Positions 1 to 2,779 of a DNA stretch of 64,000 bases are shown here, piece after piece. Where the stretch lies: contig JAIPEW010000016.1 in NCBI GenBank assembly GCA_021736985.1, positions 1-64,000 on the forward strand, read 5' to 3'. This stretch comes from Clostridiales bacterium. GTDB taxonomy: Bacteria; Bacillota; Desulfotomaculia; Desulfotomaculales; VENG01. The notes beneath the pieces are model-generated. The model did not search any database. It saw only the letters and a program-made list of their open reading frames with translations, and was not told the origin of the DNA. How positions within the stretch are numbered: position 1 is the first letter of the stretch; the number at the start of each line of letters is the position of its first letter. The position numbers were made by a program, and so were the translations under genes.

Positions 1-139
1 TTGCTTGGCATAGCCTAATCAATAATTAAGAACCGTTGGGCAAACGGGGTTAGCTTGGTAATTATACTGGCGTTAGCTAGTACGTCCCAAGAAGCCCCCA
101 CCTCTAAGCGTTAGCGTAGGTAGGGGAGTATGTCACTTA
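1..139 (+). mobile_element. Right end of an IS200/IS605 (tnpB-type) element, omegaRNA-like tail
   Basis: The first ~139 bases resemble the 3' end of tnpB-carrying IS200/IS605 elements: an AACCGTTGGGCAAACGGGG hairpin region followed by GTACGTCCCAAGAAGCC and a terminal hairpin (about 95-127, CCCC.ACCT with AGGT.GGGG), ending in GTATGTCAC. In this family the same bases form the transposon right end and the 3' scaffold of the TnpB guide RNA (omegaRNA). One frame is open to a stop at 112-114 and could be the tnpB C-terminus. tnpB itself lies outside the window. If this is right, the guide would be the bases directly 3' of about 139. Recognition is from remembered motif patterns, not a search. Confidence 0.6.
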
Positions 140-393
140 GTAAACATGAAAGCGAAGACCATAATTTAAACATGAATTACAAAATTGTCGATTTTACATC
201 AATATTTACAATTCCATATAATTATTTAAGTACTTTTGCCGAAAAATCTGGGAAACGCTTACGATTAAATTCACCTCACCGCGAATTGTTATCTCAGGAA
301 TTTGGAAATTTTTTTGCAAGAATAGGGTTGCCTAATGAAGATTTTATACAAAAAAAAGAATTAAAAGAAGCAGTTGAACAAGTTGATGAGTAG
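130..393 (+). pseudogene. Hypothetical ORF cut by the IS end
   Basis: An open frame of at most 87 codons runs out of the transposon end into flanking DNA. Its first ATG (130) lies inside the IS end. The next internal ATG (172) has no convincing ribosome site. The encoded sequence (NYKIVDFTSIFTIPYNYL... to ...LKEAVEQVDE) is not one I recognise. The simplest reading is the 3' part of a gene interrupted by the IS. A short genuine gene starting at 172 remains possible. Confidence 0.35.
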
Positions 394-551
394 TTTTAGT
401 ACCCCCATTCTACCCCAATGTAGATAAAAAAGTGCTTAAATTATGGATGTTAGATAAAACTTCCAGAGGTTTGGAATAAGCATTATAAAAGGCTTTTAAA
501 GTTAGTCGTTAATTGTTGAAACTCATTCTATAAATGGCACGCAAGAGGTTT

Positions 552-677
552 AATAACTGGGGTATTAATGGTAAGAATCTTCTGAGGGCGGAACAGGCAG
601 CCGCCACCCCCGTTATCTAGGCGGTGTTAGGAGATGCAGGAGTGCCACCCTGCCTAAGATTCTTACCATCGTTATTT
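552..677 (+). ncRNA. Candidate structured small RNA
   Basis: A 14-bp perfect stem (568-581 with 656-669) encloses about 74 bases rich in G and C. A further AATAAC/GTTATT pairing (552-557 with 671-676) extends it outward. Inside are a GGCGG/CCGCC hairpin (587-591 with 601-605), a competing second GGCGG (620-624), a GCAGG...CCTGC hairpin (about 637-653) and GGCAG/CTGCC (596-600 with 650-654). An intrinsic terminator follows within 2 bases, so the element reads as a free-standing transcript. It does not match the riboswitch, T-box, 6S or SRP consensus motifs I know. Function unknown. Confidence 0.5.
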
Positions 678-678
678 G

Positions 679-701
679 GGCCGTGTTAAACACGGCCTTT
701 T
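679..701 (+). terminator. Intrinsic terminator of the small RNA candidate
   Basis: GGCCGTG-TTAAA-CACGGCC stem-loop followed by TTTT. It ends the structured RNA on its left. Confidence 0.75.
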
Positions 702-778
702 AAATATTTTAGAAGAATTTTAACAAGTTCCCTTAAATCTTCTATGTTGGTGGCAATCAACTTCAGTGAAAAGTAACT

Positions 779-800
779 AAAAAAACAAAAGCCCGGGAGT
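779..800 (-). terminator. Intrinsic terminator of the coiled-coil gene
   Basis: Read on the minus strand: CCCGG-ACTC-CCGGG followed by CTTTTGTTTTTTT, directly after the stop codon of the minus-strand coiled-coil gene. Confidence 0.75.
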
Positions 801-805
801 CCGGG

Positions 806-1177
806 TTATTTTATTGCCCTTTTTTCTTGTTTAGTTAAGCGGTTATCCAGGTTTAGTATATCTTCCCAGATAGCCTTGACATCCTTCTTAATGATAGCAA
901 CATCTTTTTGCAGCTGCTCCTGGCCCAGCTCCAAATTATGCTGACGCTCTTCTAAGTTTTGTTGGCCCAGCTCCAAATTATGCTGGTGCACTTCTAAGTT
1001 TTGTTGGCCCAGCTCTAAATTATGCTGGCGCACTTCTAGCTTTTGTTGGCCCTTTTCCAGTGTAGTAAGGCGGGTGGTAACTTCTGACCGAAATTCCTGC
1101 AATTCCTGCCGTAGGGGCTGTAATTCTTCCTGAATAACGCTGCGGAGCATATTTGCCATGTCATTATTGTCAGCCAT
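806..1177 (-). CDS. Coiled-coil repeat protein
   Basis: A 123-residue, soluble, almost wholly helical protein. The middle (about residues 43-88) is three 14-residue repeats of the type QQNLEVRQHNLELG, encoded by 42-bp DNA repeats. Heptad-spaced leucines predict a long coiled coil. No signal peptide, membrane segment or catalytic motif is visible. Similar Glu/Gln/Leu-rich proteins are common and unnamed in Clostridia. A structural or oligomerising role is the most that can be inferred. It has its own terminator and is divergent from the diguanylate cyclase gene. Confidence 0.7.
   Translation of the reverse strand: MADNNDMANMLRSVIQEELQPLRQELQEFRSEVTTRLTTLEKGQQKLEVRQHNLELGQQNLEVHQHNLELGQQNLEERQHNLELGQEQLQKDVAIIKKDVKAIWEDILNLDNRLTKQEKRAIK
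922..1047. repeat. Three 42-bp tandem repeats inside the coiled-coil gene
   Basis: The motif GGCCCAGCTCCAAATTATGC recurs at 42-base spacing (starting near 922, 964 and 1006, the last with one substitution). Each unit encodes 14 residues, so copy-number change would keep the frame. Confidence 0.8.
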
Positions 1178-1303
1178 TGGTAGATTCCCCTTTACAAGAG
1201 GTAGTTTATAAAGAGCTGTAATTTTATAGCTAATTTATATTGAAATTGTAAAACAAAAAAATTATAATTGCAATGTTACAACCAATGAAAGAAGGTTTAT
1301 TTG

Positions 1304-2779
1304 ATGAGAAATCTTCTATTTAAATACAAATATTTAATCATAACTCTATTATTTTCCATTATGCTGCTGCTCTTTTTTCACGGTTACCGGGATACAAAGA
1401 ACATGATGGAAGAGAGTAATAAGATTCAGCGGGCCATGGTTGAACGAAATATTTTAGAGTCTTTTAGTTATGCTGACAGCACATATAAGATACTGGAAGA
1501 ACATTTAAATAAAGATATGAAAAAGTATTCTAAGGTGCTGGTAGATAAATATAAACAAAACCCGCATATCTACAGCTGGGATCTTGAAAAGATTAAAGAA
1601 AAGTTTCATGGTTATGACATTTATATAATAGATAAAAACCTGGAAGTTAAACGTACAACCTTTAAAAAAGATCTGGAACTTGATTTTGACCAATTTCCTA
1701 ACTTTGCAGATTTACTTAGAAAGCGGATGTCCGGGGACATTTTTCATGCCGATAGAATGGACATATCTACAAATGCCCACAAAATAGTTAAATACAGCTA
1801 TATGCCTTCCCCTGATAACAAATATCTTTTTGAATTAAGTACTAACATACTGGAAACTCACCCTTTAATGAAGAATATAAATGTTTTTTCCCATGCCAAT
1901 GAATTGACAAACAAATATGACCTGGTTAAAAAAATTTCTTTTTACAAGTTTAGCGAAACGGGCAGTGAGGTTGGAATTGTTACCAGGGGAGAGGGTCCTT
2001 ATATAGATAAAGATATTTCAAACAAAGTTAAAGATATTGTCGAAAATACTGTATTATCTAACAAGTCAATTGAAATAACTAAAGATAATTCTCCAGGAGC
2101 AAATTATACATACAAGTATATACCTTATTTGAATTATTCAAAACATGATGAGTTAGACTGGTGGAATTCTTATGTAGTTGGCATTACATATGACGATAGT
2201 ATTTTACAATCAAAACTGGCAGCAGAAAGAAATTTATTTATTGGAAAAACAGTGATAATCACCTTAGTATTTATATTATTTGCCTTTATCATGGTGTACT
2301 TAATAAAGCGCACCGAACAGCTGGCATCCTGTGATTGTCTAACTGCCTTACCTAATAGAAAGCGATATGAAGAGCATTTTAATAAAATAGTTTCTCAAAG
2401 AAAAGATGAAAGAGCGGCAGTGCTGTTTATCGACCTGGATGATTTTAAGGCAATTAATGACACATACGGTCATGAAACAGGAGACCTGGTTATTAAAAAA
2501 GCAGCGGAAATATTGAAAAGCAATGTTCGTGAGGATGACATGATAACCAGGGCAGGCGGAGATGAATTTTTAGTACTTCTTACCGGTATTACTTCACCCG
2601 CGGATGCAGAGTCTGCAGTTAAAAAAATTATGCAAGCATTAAAAATAACGTTAGTTGTTGATAATAAAACAATTAACGTCAGGGCAAGCACAGGCATGAG
2701 CATTTACCCGGACGACGGAACAACGCTACAGGAGTTACTGAGAAAAGCCGATCATGCCATGTACAGTGCTAAGAGATAA
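1304..2779 (+). CDS. Membrane-anchored diguanylate cyclase (GGDEF)
   Basis: Predicted to make cyclic di-GMP from two GTP at the membrane. Residues 8-25 form a transmembrane helix, followed by a roughly 280-residue extracytoplasmic sensor region of no recognised family, a second membrane helix near 312-332, and a C-terminal GGDEF domain. The GGDEF motif is intact (about 417-421), as is the RxxD product-inhibition site (REDD, five residues upstream), so the enzyme should be active and feedback-controlled. There is no EAL or HD-GYP domain. ATG 1304 is preferred over TTG 1301 because GAAGG lies 8 bases upstream. It is followed by its own terminator and is likely monocistronic. Confidence 0.93.
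   Translation: MRNLLFKYKYLIITLLFSIMLLLFFHGYRDTKNMMEESNKIQRAMVERNILESFSYADSTYKILEEHLNKDMKKYSKVLVDKYKQNPHIYSWDLEKIKEKFHGYDIYIIDKNLEVKRTTFKKDLELDFDQFPNFADLLRKRMSGDIFHADRMDISTNAHKIVKYSYMPSPDNKYLFELSTNILETHPLMKNINVFSHANELTNKYDLVKKISFYKFSETGSEVGIVTRGEGPYIDKDISNKVKDIVENTVLSNKSIEITKDNSPGANYTYKYIPYLNYSKHDELDWWNSYVVGITYDDSILQSKLAAERNLFIGKTVIITLVFILFAFIMVYLIKRTEQLASCDCLTALPNRKRYEEHFNKIVSQRKDERAAVLFIDLDDFKAINDTYGHETGDLVIKKAAEILKSNVREDDMITRAGGDEFLVLLTGITSPADAESAVKKIMQALKITLVVDNKTINVRASTGMSIYPDDGTTLQELLRKADHAMYSAKR

Follow-up and report, generated by a model that had tools for sequence, protein, structure and literature searches.

A solitary skipping-rope RNA with an intact core, from a family that probably serves as antitoxin or immunity RNA against PBECR3 nucleases

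The window analysed here, a 64,000-nucleotide stretch of a bacterial contig, carries close to its start a structured RNA with its own intrinsic terminator (positions 568-701, plus strand), the sequence being as first described (Table 1). A perfect 14-bp closing stem, several inner hairpins and an intrinsic terminator were claimed in the initial annotation of this DNA, and all of them are present, the middle hairpin being weaker than its neighbours; the terminator was caught by a custom terminator scan and missed by a simple scan. For segment 560-705 the predicted folding energy is -58.6 kcal/mol (z = -4.2), and none of 200 dinucleotide shuffles was equally stable. The RNA contains no open reading frame of 60 aa or more, as the annotation had also held, and it is present as a single copy in its 2.84-Mb genome. 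Its position outside the mobile-element end was likewise read correctly: the repeated element, for which the label IS200/IS605 is that earlier reading, ends at about position 137, and the RNA lies beyond it. The frame next to the RNA on its other side (806-1177, minus strand) encodes a coiled-coil product with an internally repeated HNLELGQQNLE motif and no confident Pfam family.

Table 1. Coordinates of the RNA, its parts and its upstream neighbours in the window
Feature	Position	Strand	Details and basis
End of multi-copy element	1..137	+	near-identical copies at at least 7 places in the genome; contig starts there
Tail of a gene of about 183 aa	130..393	+	truncated by the repeated element; encodes no nuclease; no Pfam match
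Weak candidate -10 box TATAAA	529..534	+	upstream of the RNA; sequence only
Closing stem P1	5' arm 568..581, 3' arm 656..669	+	14 perfect pairs (A568-T581 with A656-T669); sequence
Skipping-rope RNA core, RF02924	576..661	+	cmscan, full model 1-80
Hairpin P2	587..605	+	587-591 with 601-605, loop AACAGGCAG at 592-600; pairing across relatives
Kissing-loop contact	GGCA 596..599 with UGCC 643-646	+	covariation and PMC7779021, Fig. 3
Variable middle hairpin P3	607..631	+	closed by invariant C607-G631; second GGCGG at 620-624
AGAU linker	632..635	+	most conserved unpaired stretch
Hairpin P4	636..653	+	636-640 with 649-653, loop AGTGCCAC at 641-648; pairing across relatives
Intrinsic terminator	679..701	+	679-686/690-697, then TTTT; sequence, custom terminator scan

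The RNA had been presented as unassigned and as matching no familiar riboswitch or housekeeping RNA consensus. With Rfam 15, cmscan identifies it over its full length as skipping-rope RNA (RF02924), at 61.3 bits versus a gathering score of 36.7, and this match overturns the unassigned status on the annotation's own terms. Rfam types skipping-rope as an sRNA gene, and no published function for it was found among papers other than the one that first described it (10.1093/nar/gkx699). The window copy has the hallmarks of RF02924, including the closing stem, two outer hairpins, the AGAU linker and the loop-loop pseudoknot; all modelled pairs form, and the identity of its core to the consensus is 1.0. 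It belongs to the family by covariance model, by its stems and by the kissing-loop pseudoknot, and differs from it in the greater length of its perfect closing stem (14 bp) and in having no adjoining nuclease.

Covariation, which the annotation had advised seeking in relatives, is strong among 102 distinct sequences. Changes on both sides were seen in 18 of the 22 modelled pairs, in an alignment that was fitted to the covariance model for 18 of the pairs, and 92% of cells pair, versus 76% after the columns were shuffled and no more than 46% with the partners slid. All six pairs in the P1 columns covary across relatives. P2 is paired in 98% of cells, with four of its five pairs changed on both sides, and P4 in 99%, with all five pairs so changed. 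The closing C-G pair of P3 occurs in 102/102 distinct sequences and its interior varies widely in length, and the AGAU linker is 97-100% conserved (104 sequences). The long-range contact that covaries is a kissing interaction between the two outer loops (82% of cells paired; two of four pairs changed on both sides), and a loop-loop pseudoknot with covariation support is known for skipping-rope from the Rfam 14 paper (PMC7779021, Fig. 3). The transcript would be expected to adopt a compact kissing-loop structure.

Both GGCGG segments (587-591 and 620-624) and the CCGCC (601-605) are present as had been noted, but the competition between them that was proposed as a switch did not hold up. The first GGCGG pairs with CCGCC in a helix that forms in 98% of cells, and the switch was rejected because the second copy sits in the variable, poorly conserved P3. 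A cis-acting regulator or riboswitch, which the complex fold and the terminator behind it would suit, is extremely improbable, since the downstream gene at 806-1177 lies on the opposite strand, the downstream genes of relatives differ, and the one neighbour that stays constant is either upstream on the same strand or convergent; the RNA ends in its own terminator, and most copies paired with that neighbour have their own promoter. No sign of riboswitch logic was seen.

The constant neighbour is a nuclease gene, and the findings favour an RNA that acts in trans as the partner of the nuclease. No direct DNA similarity to the window RNA was detected in phages, and a distant DNA search of plasmids led to Bacillus subtilis plasmid pTA1060 and its relatives, which gave the first lead to a partner. 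In pTA1060-type plasmids the gene directly next to the RNA carries the annotation PBECR2-fold nuclease, and its best Pfam score is to PBECR3 (PF18812). Among 399 sampled genomes of the window's phylum, the RNA occurs in 28, PBECR3 in 20 and both in 14 (Fisher P 5e-14), and where both occur the two genes are almost always neighbours. A covariance model built here recovered 144 RNA copies (138 distinct) from genome, viral-contig and plasmid loci. A nuclease gene, recognised by a profile of the neighbouring nucleases, lies within 300 bp of 68 of the 144 copies (67 of the 138 distinct ones); 57 of these RNAs are on the same strand and downstream of the nuclease and 11 are convergent, so that it is always the 3' end of the nuclease gene that faces the RNA, usually at a spacing of 0-110 bp with few exceptions. 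The hosts include Bacillota of several classes, assemblies labelled Synergistaceae and Bacteroidales, Fusobacterium and Treponema.

As the genome-contig and viral loci were picked with an RNA pattern, the reciprocal, protein-first direction weighs more. Nucleases found in plasmids and phages by protein similarity only have the RNA just 3' of them in 7/7 loci (5 distinct; RNA matches at E <= 2e-12); the nucleases are 28-40% identical and come from Fusobacterium plasmids, Streptococcus suis prophages, S. thermophilus pCS17-A and Treponema pTS1. Viral loci found by nuclease peptides carried the RNA in 8/8 cases, one of them newly found (L194 and a locus overlapping L278 are included). In the genome samples the RNA adjoins 16 of 19 PBECR3 frames shorter than 200 aa, versus one of seven frames of at least 455 aa (P 0.002). 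The three small frames with no adjoining RNA comprise a locus close to a contig end (L223), one in which a transposase lies between nuclease and RNA, now 1.8 kb apart (L250), and a broken nuclease gene (L304/L305). Distances between RNAs are correlated with those between proteins (Mantel rho 0.58), which is not taken as proof because joint inheritance alone would give such a value.

Both partners reside on plasmids, prophages and mobile regions, and in principle they could hitch-hike on shared elements with no functional coupling. That they would do so at so short a spacing, always at the same end of the gene, on unrelated replicons of several phyla and between unrelated flanks is very improbable.

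Paired RNAs appear to be transcription units of their own. A sigma-70-like promoter matching at 10 of 12 positions or better precedes 85% of them, versus 3% when the upstream sequence is shuffled; a terminator follows 88%, versus 2.7% after shuffling. Among RNAs with no nuclease the corresponding values are 25% for promoters and 54% for terminators, in part because several of these copies lie in phage tRNA arrays.

The nuclease has 120-160 aa and a median pI of 8.9. All 47 proteins of an alignment composed of 46 proteins beside the RNA and one further locus member (A3) match PF18812 at E <= 1e-3, and the members scored individually exceed the cut-off. Among 48 nucleases, His40 is conserved in 46, and Lys/Arg79 and Thr/Ser104 in all 48. 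A site of His plus Thr/Ser has been described for PBECR domains in the passages of PMC5512222 that concern them, and the conserved residues match the active site predicted there. The same passages note solo PBECR versions in phages and mobile elements and give no RNA partner for PBECR. The small nucleases thus share the Pfam family and the predicted active site of the PBECR nucleases of polyvalent and MuF proteins (PMC5512222, same passages), and differ from the large polyvalent PBECR3 proteins, most of which, in this sample, have no RNA beside them. The AlphaFold model of the nuclease has a mean pLDDT of 93. Among viral proteins its fold is best matched by those of the minor capsid, MuF C-terminal and polyvalent kinds, with E down to 2e-7; matches in the PDB are weak, with BrnT among the best and the HigB2 toxin also present. 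In three loci from Clostridium-labelled sequences (L098, L034 and L086) a break in the nuclease frame falls at one common site, near residue 46, which may reflect either a shared pseudogene or a programmed frameshift.

One locus joins the nuclease to a virion-like protein. In L253 PBECR3 forms the C-terminal domain of a 509-aa frame (176-1702, plus strand), and the RNA (1731-1851) lies 29 bp downstream. The frame looks, by sequence, like a phage minor capsid (MuF-like) protein, and the locus may encode a virion-delivered nuclease together with its RNA immunity factor.

The reading favoured here, with a probability of roughly 0.7, is that skipping-rope is an antitoxin or immunity RNA which inhibits PBECR3 nucleases, and that the window holds a solitary copy of it with an intact core. 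The RNA would be made from its own promoter, fold into the kissing-loop structure, bind the BECR-fold endoribonuclease PBECR3 and block it. The nuclease would be toxic and would have RNA as its target, with tRNA as a guess suggested by the phage tRNA arrays, and the two together would form a type III-like module of toxin-antitoxin or immunity kind, carried by plasmids, prophages and chromosomes. Lone copies, such as that of the window and those of phage tRNA arrays, would most probably be retained for, or be remnants of, protection against the nucleases of incoming elements.

Lone RNAs are common. With contig-edge cases set aside, no nuclease accompanies 22 of 62 genome-contig copies, 29 of 44 viral copies and 13 of 34 copies from the phylum sample, and in every collection lone RNAs make up 28 to 35 or more of each 100 non-edge copies. 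That nearly half of the RNA copies have no nuclease nearby counts against an antitoxin role. The loss is asymmetric, however: intact small nucleases with no RNA are rare, and about nine nucleases are broken or truncated beside an intact RNA (two of them possibly owing to a contig start or to sequencing). Lone and paired RNAs are alike in core identity (0.93 v 0.94) and in pairing (0.94 v 0.94), the shared search pattern constraining the first hairpin in both groups. In six phages (L160, L167, L168, L193, L195 and L199) a lone RNA lies close to or within the tRNA genes, on the same strand; phage tRNA arrays may be a place for genes that repair damage to host RNA. The common lone RNAs, the broken nucleases, the intact cores, the copies in tRNA arrays and the locus L253 all fit an RNA that neutralises the nuclease.

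Adjacency and co-distribution by themselves are also compatible with the RNA being a substrate, a cofactor or a guide. The nuclease would then be active only with the RNA, or would cleave and mature it, and the near-obligate pairing and the conserved structured core would suit any RNA-protein partnership as close as this. ToxN itself matures the RNA that serves as its antitoxin (PMC8860590), and processing of this kind could coexist with inhibition. A cofactor without its enzyme should decay, yet here the nucleases break and the RNAs stay intact, and intact lone RNAs are common where lone intact small nucleases are rare. As to a guide, no variable guide-like segment tied to targets was found, the variable part of the RNA being a hairpin. 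These roles taken together are considered unlikely, and inhibition of the nuclease by the RNA is preferred.

For the window copy itself the choice is between a protective RNA that has been kept and a recent relic. No PBECR3 gene was detected in the window or in its genome, and no nuclease remnant or second locus was found there, with the Pfam model and with a 49-sequence profile that had no positive control; the copy is therefore regarded as solitary. The frame at 130-393 occupies the site where the nuclease gene usually lies and was considered as an alternative toxin. It was rejected, being the tail of a gene of about 183 aa whose relatives (G019, G015 and G001) belong to genomes that have no RNA; the translation of this tail shares 62% identity with the C-terminal portion of a 183-aa protein from one related genome (G019). 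Scans for sigma-70 promoters upstream of the window copy found none of 9 of 12 or better, so that it may be poorly expressed. A non-functional relic, left to decay after the nuclease was lost, perhaps with insertion of the element, would agree with the lack of a detected PBECR3 and of a good promoter, with the truncation of the upstream gene by the end of the repeated element, and with the presence of the RNA in only 9 of 113 genomes of the window's order. Against decay, all modelled pairs of the RNA form, its core is that of the full consensus, its 14-bp stem has no mismatch, and it keeps an intact terminator. No close relative carries this copy. A relic is the less probable alternative, although a serious one.

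Type III toxin-antitoxin systems (ToxIN, CptIN and TenpIN) resemble the skipping-rope module in combining a small endoribonuclease with an adjacent compact pseudoknotted RNA and in occurring on plasmids, phages and chromosomes (PMC8860590). The family has the adjacent small endoribonuclease gene and the structured RNA with predicted promoter and terminator of its own; the window copy has no nuclease gene beside it. Unlike the type III RNAs, skipping-rope lies 3' of its nuclease, has its own promoter, is usually single and measures about 80-100 nt; its fold is a kissing-loop arrangement of three hairpins, and PBECR3 is not a ToxN homologue by profile search. The position 3' of the nuclease and the mostly single copies count against the antitoxin reading, classical type III RNAs being tandem repeats 5' of the toxin, and skipping-rope is doubled in seven loci only. 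As the 5' tandem repeats are absent, the family may be said to work like a classical type III system, not to be one.

A precedent is the abiF motif (RF03085), an orphan Rfam motif whose RNA RCd22, in the AbiF system, has proven to be a type III-like antitoxin that binds its toxin and acts in cis and in trans (PMC12373285). Skipping-rope is likewise an orphan Rfam motif and is likewise phage-borne. The AbiF protein (Abi_2/AbiD/F family) and its RNA are unrelated to the partners described here, and RCd22, which takes in its terminator, is encoded ahead of the toxin gene.

Neither PADLOC nor NCBIfam returned a defence or toxin-antitoxin family for the nucleases, and no paper naming both skipping-rope and PBECR3 was found in a search that covered literature other than the original description of the RNA family (10.1093/nar/gkx699); on these two grounds the link to the nuclease may be regarded as new. 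The wider proposal that skipping-rope and PBECR3 make up a toxin-antitoxin and conflict system absent from the literature searched, with a capsid-fused nuclease accompanied by its RNA and with lone RNAs in phage tRNA arrays and bacterial chromosomes as RNA-based counter-defence, is put forward with less assurance and is judged slightly better than even. Skipping-rope is a widespread orphan RNA, present in the 28 sampled genomes and also carried by phages and plasmids. PBECR3, too, is a nuclease domain of wide occurrence, and the link gives both a testable function. It would add a probable RNA-antitoxin family unrelated to ToxIN, it would make the lone copies interpretable as protection in conflicts between phages, plasmids and hosts, and the step from orphan Rfam motif to antitoxin would follow that of the abiF motif (PMC12373285).

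Several loci show further arrangements. One lone RNA (L247, 4830-4927) is situated in what appears, from inspection of the sequence, to be a toxin-antitoxin island, with HEPN/MNT-like pairs upstream and AbrB-like and MazF-like genes downstream. Two skipping-rope RNAs, mostly in tandem, occur in each of the loci L095, L100, L136, L184, L186, L207 and L209. In S. suis prophages the nuclease gene of the module is called spbA, and in two of them (L297, 2986-3710; L292, 2986-3465) spbA and the RNA lie between the lysin gene and the attachment site, the usual spot for lysogenic-conversion cargo. Two pTA1060-type Bacillus plasmids also carry a second orphan RNA, the Bacillus-plasmid RNA (RF01691), about 90 bp from the skipping-rope RNA and on the other strand (L212, 2329-2384, minus strand; L214, 4849-4904, minus strand).
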